From Campylobacteraceae bacterium (GTDB lineage Bacteria > Campylobacterota > Campylobacteria > Campylobacterales > Campylobacteraceae): a stretch of DNA of 64,000 nucleotides. A program made the translations under genes and the position numbers. Position 1 is the stretch's first letter, and every line of letters starts with the position of its first letter. Positions 14,359 through 38,960 of the stretch are shown piece by piece. The stretch is from NCBI GenBank assembly GCA_031284315.1, contig JAITAB010000026.1, forward strand, positions 1 through 64,000, in the 5' to 3' direction. Under the pieces are notes generated by a model that saw only the letters and a program-made list of their open reading frames with translations, had not been told where the DNA came from and did no database searches.

Positions 14359-14475
14359 ATGAAAGCGGTTAAAAATGATGTAGAAAAGATATTTGAGCGC
14401 GTCCGTTTTGATTTTGACGAAGAGTCGGGACAAAAATCATCAAAAAACATCAAACAAAAAACATATCAACAGTAG
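14359..14475 (+). CDS. Short ORF cut off by the distal end of CRISPR array 1
   Basis: Not in the ORF track. An unusually strong AAAGGAGG ribosome site sits 4 bases before an ATG that opens MKAVKNDVEKIFERVRFDFDE; the frame ends at a TAG inside the degenerate terminal repeat after 38 codons. The last codons are low-complexity (KSSKNIKQKTYQQ). This looks like the 5' end of a longer gene whose remainder was replaced when the array or a rearrangement landed here. Product unknown. Confidence 0.45.
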   Translation: MKAVKNDVEKIFERVRFDFDEESGQKSSKNIKQKTYQQ

Positions 14476-15336
14476 AAATTAATTTGAGAGTCTAGACTGA
14501 GAGTACTACGGCAGGTTTGACGGCATCTACAACAGTAGAAATTAATTTGAGAGTCTAGACATGCCGCGCGAGAGCGTATCGGCTGAAATCTACAAAAGTA
14601 GAAATTAATTTGAGAGTCTAGACCTCGCGTTAGGCGGGCTATGAGTTACGAATATCTACAAAAGTAGAAATTAATTTGAGAGTCTAGACTGCTATCCTTT
14701 AATAATTTTATGGTCATCATCTACAAAAGTAGAAATTAATTTGAGAGTCTAGACACTGTTTTAGTCCCGTCCGATATTTTCTATCTACAAAAGTAGAAAT
14801 TAATTTGAGAGTCTAGACGCCAAACCGCAAACACAAACAGAAGCGAATCTACAAAAGTAGAAATTAATTTGAGAGTCTAGACATCATATCCTTCTTCGGT
14901 AGTTCTTAAATCTACAAAAGTAGAAATTAATTTGAGAGTCTAGACACATATTTTTCATCTCGTCTTTGATTAATTATCTACAAAAGTAGAAATTAATTTG
15001 AGAGTCTAGACCGCACTAATTGAGAGTTATGTCAGGCGCATCTACAAAAGTAGAAATTAATTTGAGAGTCTAGACGAACTTGAAGAGAAAGACTTTAAAG
15101 AGTATCTACAAAAGTAGAAATTAATTTGAGAGTCTAGACCCTGGAAAGTGCTCTGCAAATTTCCAGTATCTACAAAAGTAGAAATTAATTTGAGAGTCTA
15201 GACCCTGTCTTACCATAAACTCTTGAATAGAGTATCTACAAAAGTAGAAATTAATTTGAGAGTCTAGACTTCCATAGCGGCCCGCGTGGCGTGATTAGAA
15301 ATCTACAAAAGTAGAAATTAATTTGAGAGTCTAGAC
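14462..15336 (-). CRISPR. Type V-A CRISPR array 1 (14 repeats, 13 spacers)
   Basis: 36-bp repeats, transcribed on the minus strand from a leader at its right end. The crRNA-type core AATTTCTACTTTTGTAGAT ends each repeat, as Cas12a requires. Spacers are 27-31 bp. The leftmost repeat (14462-14497) is degenerate in its last five bases and the next one has a TGTT loop, marking the old, leader-distal end. All repeats nearer the leader are identical. It lies 14 kb from cas12a but has the same repeat and leader as array 2, so the same Cas proteins should serve it. Confidence 0.98.
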
Positions 15337-29075: not shown

Positions 29076-29178
29076 TTGTTAATTTCTACTTCAGTAGATC
29101 GTGTGTTATATGATTAAAATATCAACTAAATGCAAATTTAATGTAGCTTTAAATATATTTGAGCTACAATTTTGTTTT
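29076..29178 (+). ncRNA. Solitary crRNA-like RNA upstream of cas12a (creR-like)
   Basis: A single Cas12a repeat core (AATTTCTACTTCAGTAGAT, 29081-29099) stands alone, 200 bp before cas12a. The stem TCTAC/GTAGA is perfect and the loop is TTCA, while bases 5' of the core differ from the array repeats, so it is not an array remnant. It has its own -10 box and a terminator, defining an RNA of about 100 nt. The guide segment starts CGTGTGTTA; the same nine bases follow a TTTA PAM at 29188-29200 in the cas12a promoter, after which pairing breaks. A PAM with a short seed would allow binding without cleavage, hence repression. Such autorepressing RNAs are known for some CRISPR effectors; the role here is inference. 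Confidence 0.75.
29143..29178 (+). terminator. Terminator of the solitary repeat RNA
   Basis: GTAGCT (29143-29148) pairs with AGCTAC (29162-29167), with extra A-T pairing possible inside the loop, followed by AATTTTGTTTT. It lies upstream of the cas12a promoter, so it separates the small RNA from the mRNA. Confidence 0.7.
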
Positions 29179-29187
29179 GAAGCATAT

Positions 29188-29216
29188 TTTACGTGTGTTA
29201 ATGATAATTATATAAT
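29188..29216 (+). promoter_or_regulatory. cas12a promoter overlapping a PAM and 9-nt seed target
   Basis: -35-like TTTACG (29188-29193) and consensus -10 TATAAT (29211-29216) with 17-bp spacing. TTTA of the -35 is at the same time a Cas12a PAM, and CGTGTGTTA (29192-29200) equals the guide start of the solitary repeat RNA. A second TATAAT at 29264-29269 could give a shorter transcript that escapes this site. Confidence 0.7.
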
Positions 29217-29310
29217 AAAAAAGTAGCTAAAAAAATATCATATTGCGAACACAAAAGGTACTTTATAATATTTTTGAGTTTAAAATTAAAATTGTATGGT
29301 AGGAGTCAAA

Positions 29311-32300
29311 ATGTATAATGCAAATTTTAAGGATTTTACTAATGTGTATCAAATCTCAAAAACATTGAAATTTGAGTTAATACCACAAACTACTAAAGAT
29401 GGAATTTTGGTAAAGGCTGATCAAAATTTTATTGCGGATATAATCGCAAAAGACAGAAAAATAAAAGAAGCTTATATCGCACTAAAACCAATTATGGATA
29501 AAATTCACGAAAATGTAATCAATGAGAGCCTCAATTCCGATGATGCTAAAAAAATTAACTTTTTGCCTTATTTTGAAAAATATAAAAACAAAGAAAAATT
29601 TACAGCCGAAGAAAAAAGTTTACGAAAATCCATTGGGGAAACATTCTTTAACGGTGTAAATAAAATCAAAGAAAAAGCAAGCGTTGATGGCAAAAATCAA
29701 CCAATATTTAAAAATAATGGCGTAAAATGTTTAAAAGATTTGAGAATACTTAGATATATAGAGAGAAATATAGACGAATTTGCTTGCGAAGAAGTATCTA
29801 AAATTCAAATTGAAGAATATTTAGAAACTTTTAAAAATTTTTTCACATATTTTTCAGGCTACAATCAAAATAGGGAAAATTATTATGCTACAGATAAAAA
29901 ACAATCAACCGCAATCGCGACAAGAATAGTCCATGATAATTTACCAAAGTTTTGTGATAATTGTTTACAATTTGAGTTTGGAAAAATTTCTAAAAAGAAA
30001 TCTAATAAAAAAAATGCAGACAACGACACAGAAATAAAATCCAGAAAAAATGAATACCTGAATGTGTATCAATTTCTAAAAGCAACCAACATAGATACAA
30101 AAGTAAAAGACGCACAAACCAATTTGAGAGAGTCTGAGCCTGTAGATGAAAAAATGTTTAAAATTGATATATTTTCTCATTGCTTGTCGCAAAAAGGCAT
30201 TGAAGAATATAATAGAAAAATTGGAGATTATAATTTTTTAATAAATCTTTATAATCAGTCAAAAAATAATGAAAAAAATTTTAAAAAATTGGAACCATTT
30301 AAAACTCTCAATAAGCAAATTGGCTGCGGAAAAAAGAAAATGCCTTTTTTGGCATTAAAATATGATACACGAAAAGATCAAGAGAATGCATTGCAAGGTT
30401 ATGAAAACAAAAATGATACGATATTTAACCTTCAAGAATTACTATCCAAAATAGATAGCGCATGCAAAATGTTTTTCAAGAAAAAACCAAATGAATCTGA
30501 TATACGCAGTGTTCCTGCTTTTAACGAATGGATAAAAAGTTGCCAAAATTGGAATGGTATTTATTGGTCAAAAAGCGCTGTTAATATTATTTCAAATAAA
30601 TACCTATCAAATTGGCATGAAATAGAAGAATTTATACAAGTCAATTTGCAAGACAAAAATAAAAAAAAGTATTATAAAGCTGTGGCAACTTATGACAAAA
30701 AGAGGGAAGAGCAATTAAAACTAAATGATGCTGTCGAATTGTCGGGGCTATTTGAACTTCTTGATAATAATACACAAACTGATTGGAGCAAGGCATTTTT
30801 TAAGGAATCTATTTTAGAGGATGAGAGTTTTAAAAAAATAATTAATGAAAATATTTCTCCAAGTAGAAATATTATTAATTTGATATGTGCTGACATAGAC
30901 AAGAATATACAAAATACTTTTAGCTTGTCTCATGAAATATTGAATATTGTGGACTATAAAGACGAAAACAATAAGACAAAAATAAAAAATTGGTTAGATG
31001 GTATCGTTGAAGTTATTAAAATATTGAAAAATTTTTCTGTTAAAGCAGATAAAATAAAAGGTGGACCTATTAATCCTGAGCTATCTAATGCTCTTTATAT
31101 ACTATTGTATTCTGATGATATTTTATGGTTTAAATGGTACGATATTATCAGAAATTATCTGACTAAAAAGCCTCAAGATGACGCCAAAAAAAACAAACTC
31201 AAACTCAATTTTGATTGCAGTGTTTTGCTTGGCGGTTTCAGTGATGGTCAAGAGAAAAATAAACGTGCCATTATTTTGAAAAATGAGAGTAAATATTACT
31301 TGGGGATACTTATAAAAACCTCTCTTTTTGATACAGAAAAAAAAGACAATCTTATGTATAAAACATCTGACAGCAGTGTCGAACGTCTCATACTGAAAAA
31401 TTTAGCATTTAAAACTCTTGCAGGTAAGGGATTTGTGAGCAAATATAAAGAAAAGTATAGCGATATTGGAAAACGCAACCCTCAAGAAGCAATCGAAAAA
31501 TTACAGATATTTATCAAAGAAAATTATGAAAAAAAATATCCATTACTAAAAAATATTACCAATAAAAAGTATATAAATAAGAAATTATTTGATGAAGAAG
31601 TAACAAAAATATTGGCGGATTGTTATGATTGCAGTTTTATACCTATAAATTGGAACGAAGTTTTAAAGGCTATTTCAACAAAATATAAGAACAAATTCAA
31701 TGAATTATATTTGTTTGAGATTTATAGTAAGGATTTTTCTGAAAAAAGTGCTGGCAAAAAAAATCTGCAAACGCTTTATTGGGAACATATTTTCCAAGAA
31801 GACAGTACAATGCAATTATGTGGTGGTGGTGAAATATTTTATAGAGAGCGAGCTATAGAAGAGAATGAAATAATAATTCATGAGAAAGATAAACCAATAC
31901 ATAGAAGGAGTGATGATAGGACTGTAAGTGTTTTTGATTATGATATTATTAAGGATAGAAGATTTACAGAAGACAAATATTTTTTTCATATTCCTATAAA
32001 AATAAATTATACAAAATCAGTAAATAATGATATAAATAATGATATAAATAATGCATTTGTTTTGTCTGATGATATTCAATTTTTTGGTATTGATAGAGGC
32101 GAAAATCATCTAATTTATTACTCATTAATTTCTAAAGATGGAGCAATAAAAGAACAGGATAGTTTAAATATCATCAATGGAAAAGACTACTATAATGCAA
32201 TTTATGAAAAATCAAAAAAGCGGCAGGATAGTAGAAAGAATTGGCATGAAATAGGCAACATTCGCAACCTAAAAGATGGATATATTTCCGTCGTGCTTTA

Positions 32301-33366
32301 TGAAATTATTAAAAAAATTATTGATCTGAAAAATTTCAAACCAACTTTTATTGTTTTGGAAGATCTAAATACCGGTTTTAAGCGCAAACGCCAAAAAGTT
32401 GAAAAGCAAGTTTATCAAAAATTTGAATTAGCTTTGGCAAAGAAGCTTAATTATTTAGTGTACAAAGACATTTCTAATGGAGATATTGGATCAGTGTATA
32501 ATGCTCTGCAATTGACACCACCTGTAACGAATTATCAAGACATTGAAAATAAAAAACAAGTCGGCATTATACTATATACTCGTGCCAATTATACTTCTGT
32601 AACCGACCCGATAACGGGATGGCGAAAAACAATCTATCTGAAAACTGGTAGCGAAGAATATATTAAAAAGCAAATTATGGGGGTTTTTTCTGATATTGGT
32701 ATAGACGAATATGGCGACTACTTTTTTGAATATGTTGATCAAGCGAACAAAATATGGCGATTATGGTCAAGCAAAAATGGGAAATCTTTGGAACGCTATA
32801 AATATAAAAAAGGTAATGATAAAAAAGAAGGTACGGTTGAATTTTATAACATAAAAGATGATTATTTAGATATATTATTTAGAATTTTCAACAAAAAAGA
32901 ATCCTTACTGCAGCAATTAAAAAATGGCGTTATGTTGTCAAAAATTCCCAACCATAATTATACAGCATGGGAATCGCTTCGTTTTGCAATCGACCTTATT
33001 CAACAAATAAGAAATTCGGGTGATATAAATAAAAAACAACCTGTTAATTTTTTACATTCTCCAATAAGAAATAATAAAGGAGAACATTTTGATTCGCGTC
33101 TTTATCAATATCAAGAAAATGCTAAATTTCCCAAAGATGGAGATGCAAATGGCGCTTATAATATTGCCCGCAAAGGTATAATTATGTATGAACATATCAA
33201 GATGTGGAGTAAAAAAAATAATGAGGGCGAAAAGATTGATTTGAATTTATTTGTTTCAGATGAAGAATGGGATCTTTGGCTCAATGATAATAAATCATGG
33301 TTGGATAAATTAGCTTCTTTTGCTTTCAAAAATCAAAAAGAAAATCAAACCGATATGCAAAAATGA
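29311..33366 (+). CDS. cas12a: CRISPR effector nuclease Cas12a (Cpf1)
   Basis: 1,351 residues from ATG 29311, which has AGGAG 5 bases upstream; the track start at 29296 would place that ribosome site inside the gene. Starts MYNANFKDFTNVYQISKTLKFELIP, typical Cas12a. RuvC residues are present: Asp928 (GIDRGENHL), Glu1017 (VLEDLNTGFK), Asp1278 (GDANGAYNIA). Nuc-lobe Arg1234 (QQIRNSG) is present, as is the bridge helix (KNWHEIGNIRNLKDGYIS). The crRNA-processing WED region is kept (LYWEHIF, GEIFYRERAI, DRRFTEDKYFFH). It should process its own crRNAs and cut DNA next to T-rich PAMs. Slightly longer than Francisella Cas12a. Overlaps cas4 by 4 bases. Confidence 0.98.
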   Translation: MYNANFKDFTNVYQISKTLKFELIPQTTKDGILVKADQNFIADIIAKDRKIKEAYIALKPIMDKIHENVINESLNSDDAKKINFLPYFEKYKNKEKFTAEEKSLRKSIGETFFNGVNKIKEKASVDGKNQPIFKNNGVKCLKDLRILRYIERNIDEFACEEVSKIQIEEYLETFKNFFTYFSGYNQNRENYYATDKKQSTAIATRIVHDNLPKFCDNCLQFEFGKISKKKSNKKNADNDTEIKSRKNEYLNVYQFLKATNIDTKVKDAQTNLRESEPVDEKMFKIDIFSHCLSQKGIEEYNRKIGDYNFLINLYNQSKNNEKNFKKLEPFKTLNKQIGCGKKKMPFLALKYDTRKDQENALQGYENKNDTIFNLQELLSKIDSACKMFFKKKPNESDIRSVPAFNEWIKSCQNWNGIYWSKSAVNIISNKYLSNWHEIEEFIQVNLQDKNKKKYYKAVATYDKKREEQLKLNDAVELSGLFELLDNNTQTDWSKAFFKESILEDESFKKIINENISPSRNIINLICADIDKNIQNTFSLSHEILNIVDYKDENNKTKIKNWLDGIVEVIKILKNFSVKADKIKGGPINPELSNALYILLYSDDILWFKWYDIIRNYLTKKPQDDAKKNKLKLNFDCSVLLGGFSDGQEKNKRAIILKNESKYYLGILIKTSLFDTEKKDNLMYKTSDSSVERLILKNLAFKTLAGKGFVSKYKEKYSDIGKRNPQEAIEKLQIFIKENYEKKYPLLKNITNKKYINKKLFDEEVTKILADCYDCSFIPINWNEVLKAISTKYKNKFNELYLFEIYSKDFSEKSAGKKNLQTLYWEHIFQEDSTMQLCGGGEIFYRERAIEENEIIIHEKDKPIHRRSDDRTVSVFDYDIIKDRRFTEDKYFFHIPIKINYTKSVNNDINNDINNAFVLSDDIQFFGIDRGENHLIYYSLISKDGAIKEQDSLNIINGKDYYNAIYEKSKKRQDSRKNWHEIGNIRNLKDGYISVVLYEIIKKIIDLKNFKPTFIVLEDLNTGFKRKRQKVEKQVYQKFELALAKKLNYLVYKDISNGDIGSVYNALQLTPPVTNYQDIENKKQVGIILYTRANYTSVTDPITGWRKTIYLKTGSEEYIKKQIMGVFSDIGIDEYGDYFFEYVDQANKIWRLWSSKNGKSLERYKYKKGNDKKEGTVEFYNIKDDYLDILFRIFNKKESLLQQLKNGVMLSKIPNHNYTAWESLRFAIDLIQQIRNSGDINKKQPVNFLHSPIRNNKGEHFDSRLYQYQENAKFPKDGDANGAYNIARKGIIMYEHIKMWSKKNNEGEKIDLNLFVSDEEWDLWLNDNKSWLDKLASFAFKNQKENQTDMQK

Positions 33367-33932
33367 TGCACAACTACATCGCCATATCAACTTTAAATGA
33401 TTTTATATTTTGTCCGTATTCTATTTATTTGCATAATGTTTACATGGGCGGCGATGAGGAGTTGGTGCATGCTGTTCCGCAAACGCGCGGTAAAGTCGCA
33501 CATGGGACGATTGACAATAAAAATTACAGCAGTAGAAAAGATGAGATAACGGGTTTGCCTGTTTATTGCGGCGAGCTTGGTATTGTCGGAAATATAGATA
33601 TTTACAAAACCAAAGAAAAATTACTTATAGAGCGAAAATATCAAATCAATGAAATTTATCAGGGTCAGATTTATCAGCTTTGGGCGGAATATTTTTGCAT
33701 GATTGAGATGGGATATGATGTCAAAAATCTGGCTTTTTACGCAATATCTACCAATAAAACTTTTCCCGCAGCCGTTCCAAATGAGGAAAATAAAAAAGAA
33801 TTGCAGGATTTTATTTTGAAATTTAAGCAGTTTGACCCAGAACAATCTATCTCAATCAATACAAACAAATGCACGCATTGCATATATTGCGCATTGTGCG
33901 ATAAAGTGGATATTGAAAATGTTTACGCATAA
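33363..33932 (+). CDS. cas4: Cas4 exonuclease of the adaptation module
   Basis: 189 residues. Cas4 features: one Cys near the N-terminus (FIFCPYSIYLHNVY) and three near the C-terminus (CTHCIYCALC) that bind a 4Fe-4S cluster, a RecB-like nuclease core with GNIDIYKTKEKLLIERKYQ (Asp, Glu-x-Lys) and QIYQLWAEYFCM. Cas4 trims prespacers and helps choose those with a correct PAM, which keeps new spacers targetable by Cas12a. Start overlaps the cas12a stop (ATGA), so the genes are coupled. Normal length for type V Cas4. Confidence 0.95.
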   Translation: MMHNYIAISTLNDFIFCPYSIYLHNVYMGGDEELVHAVPQTRGKVAHGTIDNKNYSSRKDEITGLPVYCGELGIVGNIDIYKTKEKLLIERKYQINEIYQGQIYQLWAEYFCMIEMGYDVKNLAFYAISTNKTFPAAVPNEENKKELQDFILKFKQFDPEQSISINTNKCTHCIYCALCDKVDIENVYA

Positions 33933-34890
33933 AGATATAGAGTACCGCTCTATTTTTGTCATAAATTGCATTAAGGATAGATCGTTGCGTGTCGCGAACG
34001 GAGAGTTGCTGCTTGAGAATATTGAAGAGAAAAAGACGCTTACAAAGCTGCCGTTTCAGAAAATATTGGCGCTGTTTGTCATAGGACATGCGAGTATTAC
34101 GACTCCATTAATTGACAAATGCACCAGATACGGGATATCGCTTGTCGTGATGAAGCAAAACCTAAGACCTGTTTTCTTCTTTTCCATCACAGCCGAAGCC
34201 AATTTTTTACTTCGCAAAAAGCAGTATGAGTATGATAAGGAAAATTTGCAAATTCCAAAAATATTGGTAACAAACAAGATAAAAAATCAGTTGAGTTTAT
34301 TGAGAAAAACCCGCCTGAAAACGGACAATATACAAAAAGCAAAAGAGCAGTGCGCAGCCATTTTATCTCTAATCCCGAATGCTTCAAATTATGATGTCGT
34401 TATGGGGCTTGAGGGCAAGGCGGCAACGATTTTTTTCTCTGTTTATTTTGAACCGTTTGCTTGGAAAAACCGCTCTCCCAGAACAAAGATAGACCCGATA
34501 AATGCGACTCTTGATATTGGCTATACTATATTGTTCAATTATATTGAGGTATTTGTCCGACTGTTTGGATTTGACCCATATAAAGGCGTTTATCATCAGC
34601 TCTGGTTTAAGCGTAAGTCGCTGGTTTGTGATTTGGTGGAGCCTTTTCGCTGCATAATAGACAAGCAGGTCAGAAAAGCTTTTGGCGTTCAACAGTGCAA
34701 AGCGGAGGATTTCAACTTTATCAAAAATGAGTATATTTTAAAACGCGAAAAAAACAGCGACTATACTAAAATGTTTTATGATGTATTGATAGAACAAAAA
34801 GCGGCAATTTTTAATTATATGCGTCAATTTTATCGTTGTTTTATGCAGCAAAACTATGTGTCGGAATACCCTCAATTTTTAATGGAGTAA
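33919..34890 (+). CDS. cas1: Cas1 spacer integrase
   Basis: 323 residues from ATG 33919, overlapping cas4 by 14 bases; the track start at 33832 would give a 100-base overlap and no Cas1-like residues. Metal-binding residues appear in the usual order: Glu165 (GLEGKAATIFF), His226 (GVYHQLWF) and Asp238 (CDLVEPFR). N-terminal beta domain (KLPFQKILALFVIGHASIT, LIDKCTRYGISLVVM) is typical. With Cas2 it inserts new spacers at the leader-repeat junction. Two arrays share the same leader, so this one Cas1 could feed both. Confidence 0.95.
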   Translation: MFTHKDIEYRSIFVINCIKDRSLRVANGELLLENIEEKKTLTKLPFQKILALFVIGHASITTPLIDKCTRYGISLVVMKQNLRPVFFFSITAEANFLLRKKQYEYDKENLQIPKILVTNKIKNQLSLLRKTRLKTDNIQKAKEQCAAILSLIPNASNYDVVMGLEGKAATIFFSVYFEPFAWKNRSPRTKIDPINATLDIGYTILFNYIEVFVRLFGFDPYKGVYHQLWFKRKSLVCDLVEPFRCIIDKQVRKAFGVQQCKAEDFNFIKNEYILKREKNSDYTKMFYDVLIEQKAAIFNYMRQFYRCFMQQNYVSEYPQFLME

Positions 34891-34895
34891 ATTAT

Positions 34896-35171
34896 ATGCT
34901 TGTTGTGAGTTACGATATATCAAACGATAAATTAAGAAGTAGATTTTCAAAAACGCTTGAAAGATACGGCGGCATTAGACTGCAATACTCTGTTTTTGAA
35001 GTTAATAACTCGAAAAGAGTCATGGATACTTTAAAAATAAAAATAGAAAATATATTTGCCAAACAATTTGGCGGAGAAGACAGTATTTTTATATTTGAAA
35101 CGGATGAAAAGAAGGCGGTTAAATATGGAAATGCAATTCATAGAGATCAAGAACTGCTGTTTTTCACATAA
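34896..35171 (+). CDS. cas2: Cas2
   Basis: 91 residues from ATG 34896 with GGAG upstream; the track start at 34836 lies inside cas1. Begins MLVVSYDISNDKLRSRFSKTLERYG, the classic Cas2 strand and first Asp, followed by RLQYSVFEV. It is the structural centre of the Cas1-Cas2 integration complex. Last gene of cas12a-cas4-cas1-cas2; the leader of array 2 begins 3 bases after its stop. Confidence 0.95.
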   Translation: MLVVSYDISNDKLRSRFSKTLERYGGIRLQYSVFEVNNSKRVMDTLKIKIENIFAKQFGGEDSIFIFETDEKKAVKYGNAIHRDQELLFFT

Positions 35172-35173
35172 TA

Positions 35174-35356
35174 GCAAAGGTGAGTCTTAATTTTTTTATG
35201 GTTGTTTTAACGAATCGTATTATATGATGACGCCATCGGTTCTTTAACATATCAATGTCAAATGCATTATTTATGACGGGGGATAAATATGTTTTCAAGA
35301 AAAATGAAAAACATATTGAAATATCGCCTCTTTTGTGCTATATTTTCATGTGTAGA
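35174..35356 (+). promoter_or_regulatory. Leader of CRISPR array 2
   Basis: 183 bp directly after cas2 and before the first repeat. Matches the inverted leader of array 1 at about 95 percent by eye. It should contain the array promoter and the Cas1-Cas2 docking signal; TGCTATATTTTCATGTGTAGA borders the first repeat. Confidence 0.9.
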
Positions 35357-36431
35357 GTCTAGACTCTCAAATTAATTTCTACTTTTATAGATACGCGGAC
35401 ACGCCCACATCGCTTTATGAAAGGTCTAGACTCTCAAATTAATTTCTACTTTTATAGATATGCGTTTTTCATACTCTGCAATTATTTCTTGTCTAGACTC
35501 TCAAATTAATTTCTACTTTTATAGATTGTCAATATACCGCCCGCCTGTTAATTTGTCTAGACTCTCAAATTAATTTCTACTTTTATAGATAATTATCGCA
35601 GATTGTCATTGTCGCGGGTCTAGACTCTCAAATTAATTTCTACTTTTATAGATGCGCCGCAACTACAGCCAGCCATGGTTTACTGTGTCTAGACTCTCAA
35701 ATTAATTTCTACTTTTATAGATATATATTCATTCCAGACGGGCTTATTTGGTCTAGACTCTCAAATTAATTTCTACTTTTATAGATACGGGCGGTTTGGG
35801 GCTTCATGACGGAGGTCTAGACTCTCAAATTAATTTCTACTTTTATAGATGAAAGAGCCTCTTTGATAAGCTCCTGTGTGGTCTAGACTCTCAAATTAAT
35901 TTCTACTTTTGTAGATATAATGTAAGAGCAATCTATTTTATTAATAGTCTAGACTCTCAAATTAATTTCTACTTTTGTAGATAAGCGCTTAAAGCAAAAC
36001 TTGGCAAAATATGTCTAGACTCTCAAATTAATTTCTACTTTTGTAGATAACAGCGCACAAGATTTAGCCACAACAGTCTAGACTCTCAAATTAATTTCTA
36101 CTTTTGTAGATATTTTCTCGCTTATGTCAGATTTAGTTTGTCTAGACTCTCAAATTAATTTCTACTTTTGTAGATATTATCTCATCTACTTTGGCATTTA
36201 TCTCGTCTAGACTCTCAAATTAATTTCTACTTTTGTAGATAGCCTGACGGGTGATTGAGTTTTTACTCAGTCTAGACTCTCAAATTAATTTCTACTTTTG
36301 TAGATAATGAGTTCCCTATTGATAGAGTAGAGTCTAGACTCTCAAATTAATTTCTACTTTTGTAGATTAACAAGTTTGCCCTTCATAATGTCCCAGTATA
36401 GACTCATGAAATAATTTCTATTTTTCACATA
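35357..36431 (+). CRISPR. Type V-A CRISPR array 2 (16 intact repeats, one degenerate, 16 spacers)
   Basis: 36-bp repeats on the plus strand, spacers 26-33 bp. Repeats 1-8 (35357-35850) end CTTTTATAGAT; repeats 9-16 end CTTTTGTAGAT as in array 1. The last unit (36396-36431) is clearly degenerate and marks the old end. No spacer is shared with array 1 by eye. Repeat homogeneity and the fully furnished cas operon next to it suggest active spacer uptake in the recent past. Confidence 0.98.
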
Positions 36432-38282: not shown

Positions 38283-38960
38283 ATGATTAATGTTTTGATG
38301 ATTGAAGATGATATAGAATTCGCTCAGATATTAAGCGAATATTTGGCACGCTATAATATTAAGATCACCAATTACGAAGATCCGTATCTTGGATTAAGCG
38401 CGGGAGTAAAAAATTACGATTTGCTAATTTTGGACTTGACGCTTCCTGGAATTGACGGACTTGACGTATGTCGTGAAGTTGCGACAAAGTACAATATCCC
38501 CATCATTGTTTCGTCTGCAAGAGGCGATTTGTCCGATAAGATTATAGGACTTCAAATAGGCGCTGACGACTATTTGGCCAAGCCGTACAATCCACAGGAA
38601 ATGTATGCGAGAATCGTTAGTCTTATCAGAAGATACAAAAAAGTTGCCGCGCAGGTTGAAGAGGCTTCGCATGAGGATTCAAGATTTAGAGTAGATGAAA
38701 AAAGACATCAGATTTTTCTTGAAGACAAACCGCTTACGCTTACGCCTGCGGAGTATGAAATACTTGCATGTTTGATTCAACAGCACAGTTTTTCGCTTTC
38801 TCGCGAGCAATTGGTTTACAACTGCAGATCTATAAAAGATAAAGGCGGCAAAAGTCTTGATGTTATTATAGGAAGAATTAGAGCGAAAATAGGCGACAGT
38901 TCAAAACATCCGAAATATATCTATTCCGTAAGAGGCATAGGCTATAAATTAGTAGGATAA
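38283..38960 (+). CDS. racR: OmpR-family response regulator RacR
   Basis: 225 residues from ATG 38283 with GAAGGAG upstream (the track start at TTG 38268 is less likely). Receiver domain MINVLMIEDDIEF with phospho-acceptor Asp in LLILDLTLPG and Lys in YLAKPYNP; C-terminal winged helix (LTLTPAEYEILACL, RIRAKIGD, IYSVRGIGYKL). Sequence and the order dnaJ-racR-racS-recR match RacR of Campylobacter and ArsR-like regulators of Helicobacter, which control growth under temperature or acid stress and respiration. Its kinase partner is truncated here, and a terminator now follows the gene. Confidence 0.92.
   Translation: MINVLMIEDDIEFAQILSEYLARYNIKITNYEDPYLGLSAGVKNYDLLILDLTLPGIDGLDVCREVATKYNIPIIVSSARGDLSDKIIGLQIGADDYLAKPYNPQEMYARIVSLIRRYKKVAAQVEEASHEDSRFRVDEKRHQIFLEDKPLTLTPAEYEILACLIQQHSFSLSREQLVYNCRSIKDKGGKSLDVIIGRIRAKIGDSSKHPKYIYSVRGIGYKLVG

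Follow-up and report, generated by a model that had tools for sequence, protein, structure and literature searches.

The eight leader-proximal repeats of the CRISPR array beside the cas12a gene of a Campylobacteraceae bacterium (array 2; assembly GCA_031284315.1, contig JAITAB010000026.1) share a single base change that breaks the stem of the crRNA handle, and most of the spacers served by these repeats match the cell's own chromosome. With a probability of roughly 70%, this change, G(-6)->A, disables or badly weakens the crRNAs of repeats 1-8, its likely origin being an escape from autoimmunity at spacer 8 that was then copied forward. The block structure of the repeats, the self-matches and their PAMs, the Cas12a motifs and the predicted loss of the stem are observations, from which we infer that the crRNAs lost function and in which order events took place at spacer 8. 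Self-targeting, the main point of array 2, was overlooked in the earlier reading of this DNA (the first-pass annotation). Features are located in Table 1 by their position in the window, i.e. the whole stretch of 64,000 nt that was analyzed.

Table 1. Features of the type V-A locus and its arrays, in window coordinates; C numbers in the remarks denote contigs of the same genome.
Feature	Position	Strand	Remarks
Array 1	14467..15336	-	12 TTTT-loop repeats, 1 TGTT-loop repeat, degenerate terminal repeat; all 13 full-repeat handles intact
Solitary handle with pseudo-spacer, CGTGTGTTATATGATTAAAA	29079..29119 (handle 29079-29099)	+	CreR-like, 0.2 kb upstream of cas12a
TTTA PAM with 9-nt seed match to the pseudo-spacer, CGTGTGTTA	29188..29200 (seed 29192-29200)	+	cas12a upstream region
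cas12a	29296..33366	+	1356 aa, full length; RuvC D/E/D and Nuc R motifs present
cas4	33363..33932	+	PREFRAN type V
cas1	33832..34890	+	PREFRAN type V; ORF as listed, true start probably after cas4
cas2	34836..35171	+	ORF as listed
Array 2 leader	35172..35356	+	Between cas2 and repeat 1; near-identical to the leaders of arrays 1 and 3
Array 2	35357 to ~36431	+	Downstream of cas12a, cas4, cas1 and cas2; 16 full repeats and a degenerate terminal repeat
Array 2 repeats 1-8	35357..35850	+	All with G(-6)->A handle, ending in CTTTTATAGAT
Starts of repeats 1-8	35357, 35424, 35491, 35555, 35618, 35687, 35751, 35815	+	
Spacer 1	35393..35423	+	Perfect match C4:31243-31273, PAM TTTA, glutathionylspermidine-synthase-like gene
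Spacer 3	35527..35554	+	Perfect match C38:11832-11859, PAM TTTA, CusA/AcrB-type efflux gene
Spacer 4	35591..35617	+	Perfect match C4:6953-6979, flank TTTCAA (PAM displaced 2 nt), nuoN-type gene
Spacer 5	35654..35686	+	Match of nt 1-31 (of 33) to C60:16769-16801, flank TTTTCC; spans the start codon of a small membrane-protein ORF
Spacer 7	35787..35814	+	Perfect match C59:22790-22817, PAM TTTT, phenylacetate-CoA-ligase-type gene (paaK)
Spacer 8	35851..35880	+	Perfect match C63:322-351, PAM TTTA, ruvA; oldest mutant-handle spacer
Array 2 repeats 9-16	35881..36367	+	Intact handle, ending in CTTTTGTAGAT
Spacer 10	35983..36012	+	Intact handle; perfect match C12:11382-11411, ATP synthase b-type gene; flank AGAG, no PAM
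Degenerate terminal repeat	~36396..36431	+	Marks the leader-distal end of array 2

Repeats 1-8 of array 2 are one identical sequence, GTCTAGACTCTCAAATTAATTTCTACTTTTATAGAT, from which repeats 9-16 differ solely by G instead of A at a single position. A G-to-A change in the first eight repeats that is absent from the remaining eight had been described in the first-pass annotation, and comparison of the repeats bears it out. The A block is leader-proximal, since the terminal repeat lies at one end of the array and the leader and cas2 at the other; a perfect leader-side block of 8 among 16 repeats has a probability of 1/12870 under random placement. Outside array 2, the A variant is absent from the arrays of this genome, and neither 153 genomes of the family nor 397 genomes of the phylum have it in an array; single A-type 19-mers are present in 10 viral contigs, none of which contains an array. 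Two further matches to the repeat end, at 38828 and 63897, stand without repeat context and were dismissed as chance.

In handle numbering, the changed base G(-6) lies opposite C(-11) and forms the loop-closing pair. The stem damage claimed in the first-pass annotation was reproduced by folding: the pair becomes C-A, and the predicted energy rises from -4.8 kcal/mol with 5 pairs for the G handle to -0.8 kcal/mol with 4 pairs for the A handle, a cost of about 4 kcal/mol in this model, while every loop variant found here keeps 5 bp. The conserved UCUAC...GUAGA stem is absent in repeats 1-8; repeats 9-16 have it, and so does every full repeat in arrays 1 and 3. Natural Cas12a scaffolds vary in the loop only and have an invariant stem (PMC6362571), and helix-disrupting hairpin mutations abolish cleavage by FnCas12a (PMC8789034). 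AsCas12a cuts in vitro with large handle truncations at high RNA concentration (PMC8789034), so that the activity of A-handle crRNAs may be reduced rather than lost.

Block-wise repeat variation is not confined to array 2. The first-pass annotation had equated the repeats of array 1 with repeats 9-16 of array 2, which holds for the 12 leader-side repeats ending in CTTTTGTAGAT and fails for the 13th, which ends in CTGTTGTAGAT; the degenerate terminal repeat of array 1 has the same TGTT loop as this 13th repeat. In array 3, on contig C28, the loops read from the leader outward TGTT (seven repeats), TTTT (one), TTTC (four) and TTTT (two), and similar block-wise variants occur in genomes of the same genus. 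From old to new, the loop order of array 3 is TTTT, TTTC, TTTT, TGTT (L009 1629-2540, - strand), which requires either a back mutation or an exchange between arrays with near-identical leaders. In all these other blocks the differences are limited to the loop or to the repeat's 5' part, and a block that breaks the stem is found in array 2 alone. The blocks in arrays 1 and 3 and in the relatives support the view that new repeats are generally copied from the leader-proximal one in these arrays. Dating of the mutation by this copying, which had been proposed earlier, agrees with these blocks and can be sharpened: because repeat 9 still carries G, the change is placed in repeat 8, where it would have arisen no earlier than the integration of spacer 8 and ahead of that of spacer 7.

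Array 2 was searched against its own genome, and each match was checked base by base. An own-chromosome match was obtained for six of the eight spacers behind mutant handles (spacers 1, 3, 4, 5, 7 and 8); three of these are perfect and carry a TTTA PAM (1, 3 and 8), and a fourth perfect match has TTTT (7). The same search returned no self-match for spacers 2 and 6. Among the spacers of array 2 with intact handles, spacer 10 alone matches the genome. The earliest A handle is exactly that of the earliest PAM-bearing self-target, spacer 8. None of the protospacers is on a prophage or plasmid contig: each is located within or next to an ordinary chromosomal gene. Most can be recognized at the same place in genomes of the same genus; since these genes are present in the relatives, the targets are regarded as chromosomal and not phage-derived. 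A comparison of array 2 with phage records gave no convincing protospacers. Spacer 13, which has an intact handle, matches with 2 mismatches a DarB-like antirestriction/methyltransferase gene of a relative, G138 (contig C97, L082 ~5012), with a TTTT flank; this gene probably belongs to a mobile element, and such a match would be as expected of a working immune memory.

The other arrays and the relatives serve as controls. In searches of the own genome, none of the 13 spacers of array 1 and none of the 14 spacers behind intact handles in array 3 match. One further spacer of array 3 matches C2:30408-30435 in a LOG-family gene with 0 mismatches and a TTTG PAM, and it is preceded by GTCTAGAC alone, a repeat cut to its first 8 nt (L009 1794-1829, - strand); the last 28 nt, including the whole handle, are gone. 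This handle-less spacer is an independent second case of a self-spacer with a damaged handle, so that perfect TTTV self-targets number 1/1 behind the deleted handle. Across the three arrays, the 35 intact-handle spacers yield a single self-match (spacer 10), without a PAM. In five relatives of the same genus, 3 of 100 spacers self-match, all at poor sites (CTTA with a first-position mismatch; GCAA; TATT with two seed mismatches). Any self-match is therefore found for 6/8 A handles versus 1/35 own intact handles (Fisher p=3e-5) or 4/135 when the five relatives are added (p=5e-7), and a perfect self-match with a TTTV PAM for 3/8 versus 0/35 (p=0.0045) or 0/135 (p=1e-4); within array 2 alone the contrast between A and G handles gives p=0.02, and throughout these tests the A-handle spacers, being the newest and acquired in sequence, are not fully independent. 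In the set of 135, two relatives without a detected cas12a (G145 and G146) are weaker controls, and "intact" is approximate for the relatives, as a few of their 100 spacers follow repeats with stem changes of their own. G145 and G146 have Cas12a-type arrays of ~14 and ~11 units (L059 and L060). A different single stem break in relative G136 (L054 repeat 5) was considered as a second natural case and rejected, its spacer not being self-matching. The first-pass annotation had left two outcomes side by side, namely that the eight crRNAs are processed or bound less well, or that the cell tolerates the change; the choice is pushed toward the former because perfect TTTV self-targets occur only behind mutant or deleted handles.

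In the explanation proposed here, the break in the loop-closing pair would disable or badly weaken every crRNA made from repeats 1-8. Acquisition of spacer 8, with its perfect match to the cell's own ruvA and a TTTA PAM, would have posed a threat of autoimmunity, and the cell would have survived because the repeat serving this spacer mutated, the mutation being fixed as an escape. As the leader-proximal repeat is copied at each acquisition, the defective handle would then have been passed to all seven later units, and adaptation, continuing without selection against self DNA, would have let self-spacers accumulate. After a loss of interference, new spacers should come mainly from self DNA, given that the preference for plasmid DNA is lost in interference-deficient cells: without Cas9 cutting, plasmid-derived spacers drop from 68% to 4% (PMC6990116). 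Spacers 2 and 6, which have no self-match, and the stem break of G136, which has no self-spacer beside it, weigh against this explanation. We lean toward the view that one handle mutation made array 2 a heritable, non-cutting recorder whose later spacers sample mainly the own chromosome.

The cas genes bear on whether interference could have been lost by another route. Cas12a matches TIGR04330 over its full length with 514.5 bits against a cut-off of 300, and the type V Cas4, Cas1 and Cas2 models (TIGR04328, TIGR04329 and TIGR01573) are all matched above their cut-offs; by its genes and remaining repeats the system is type V-A, despite the stem loss in repeats 1-8. The catalytic motifs FGIDRGE, VLEDLN, QIRNS and DGDANGAY are intact, and a dead Cas12a is not supported. 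A Lys-to-Arg exchange at the RNase site is regarded as clade-typical, since it is shared with a relative of 65% identity. It was the one Cas12a relative obtained in a scan of genome contigs and comes from a bin labelled Planctomycetaceae, with no array in its 8.4 kb; identity to Cas12a proteins of the own genus is 33-34%. Together with the low GC content of cas12a (0.281 versus 0.387 for the window), these identities indicate that cas12a was probably exchanged horizontally, the leader and array type staying genus-like.

Handles also occur outside the arrays. The first nine nt of the pseudo-spacer upstream of cas12a match the cas12a upstream region at 9/9 positions in this genome, 9/9 in G143 and 8/9 in G141. 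The two relatives, both of the same genus (L071 and L070), have the same arrangement with different seeds, pseudo-spacer and target having changed together, despite a cas12a that is only 33-34% identical to the one studied here. CreR, a crRNA-like repressor of cas genes, has been described for types I and V-A (PMC12737573), and the likeness is that a lone handle precedes cas12a and that a PAM with a short seed match to its pseudo-spacer lies in the region upstream of the gene; the stem of this handle is intact, unlike that of repeats 1-8 of array 2. The fit to CreR suggests that this cell expresses its Cas12a and regulates it. Another is an exact 21-nt Cas12a handle, TTAATTTCTACTGTTGTAGAT, in a head-tail connector gene of a prophage, close to its start codon (C26:10752-10772; L010 1253-1273, - strand). 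It may be an RNA anti-CRISPR, a repeat mimic or a coding coincidence: known RNA anti-CRISPRs (Racr, PMC10651486) are solitary repeats in phage genomes expressed as non-coding RNA, whereas the copy on contig C26 sits inside coding sequence.

Four other explanations were weighed. Interference might have been lost cell-wide at a similar time, through a repressed or defective cas12a or a prophage anti-CRISPR, leaving the repeat change as a neutral passenger. We hold this to be unlikely. The self-spacers do occupy the newest part of the array that adjoins the cas genes, arrays 1 and 3 may be without recent acquisition, and contig C26 has a prophage-like region; however, cas12a is full length with its RuvC and Nuc motifs, and the solitary-repeat regulator upstream of it has been maintained with a matching target. 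A cell-wide loss also leaves unexplained why the boundary of the self-spacers coincides with that between A and G repeats, and why array 3 lacks a handle at precisely its one self-spacer.

That A handles still work well enough, with a neutral or mild change that does no more than date the acquisitions, appears improbable. Self-targeting would then be tolerated through repair or low expression; the CreR-like element may indeed hold Cas12a expression low, and AsCas12a cuts in vitro with truncated handles (PMC8789034). Against this stand the predicted loss of 4 kcal/mol in the stem and the distribution of perfect TTTV self-targets, at 0/135 intact handles versus 3/8 mutant ones. The genome being a draft of 69 contigs, the A block might derive from a co-occurring strain with a dead system, but leader, cas genes and old spacers form one continuous array region on a single 158-kb contig, the estimated contamination is 0.69% and the spacers match their own genome exactly, making a strain mixture very improbable. 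Least credible of all is the use of A-block crRNAs as gene regulators that bind chromosomal genes through weak handles without cutting: six different chromosomal sites are matched and Cas12a appears to act here as a repressor via the CreR-like RNA, yet the targets are unrelated and mostly within coding regions, and the damaged handles with full-length matches of the A block are the opposite of the good handle and short seed match of CreR-type regulation.

Should the escape at spacer 8 be correct, array 2 would be a natural loss-of-function test of one Cas12a handle base pair, from which the order of events in CRISPR autoimmunity could be read. The repeat itself would record the escape from self-targeting and hand it on to later spacers, the array growing while its new part is useless. 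This would provide a checkable reason for the invariance of repeat stems and a filter for live spacers in an array.

Among known systems, the locus resembles type V-A of Francisella (PREFRAN) in its gene order cas12a-cas4-cas1-cas2, the 36-nt repeat, the 19-nt handle and the T-rich PAM; the difference is that eight of its repeats break the stem that is invariant among surveyed natural scaffolds (PMC6362571). Xanthomonas albilineans likewise combines many self-spacers with an apparently complete CRISPR-Cas in one genome (PMC10810201). There, anti-CRISPR proteins provide the tolerance and crRNA processing is normal, whereas here PAM-bearing self-targets are found behind damaged handles only. That mutated repeats can adjoin self-targeting spacers is already known; Stern et al. 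(2010), cited in PMC6990116, list them among the reasons for harmless self-targeting. As those cases are represented in that citation, the likeness is that a defective neighboring repeat renders self-spacers harmless while target and spacer are intact. Compared with them, array 2 presents one base change in a Cas12a handle common to eight consecutive units, six of them with self-spacers, in a pattern consistent with inheritance by repeat duplication, and a second case is added by the deleted handle of array 3 in this genome. The novelty lies in the single-base handle change across eight units, in its start at the earliest self-spacer with a PAM, and in the finding of another such case in array 3.
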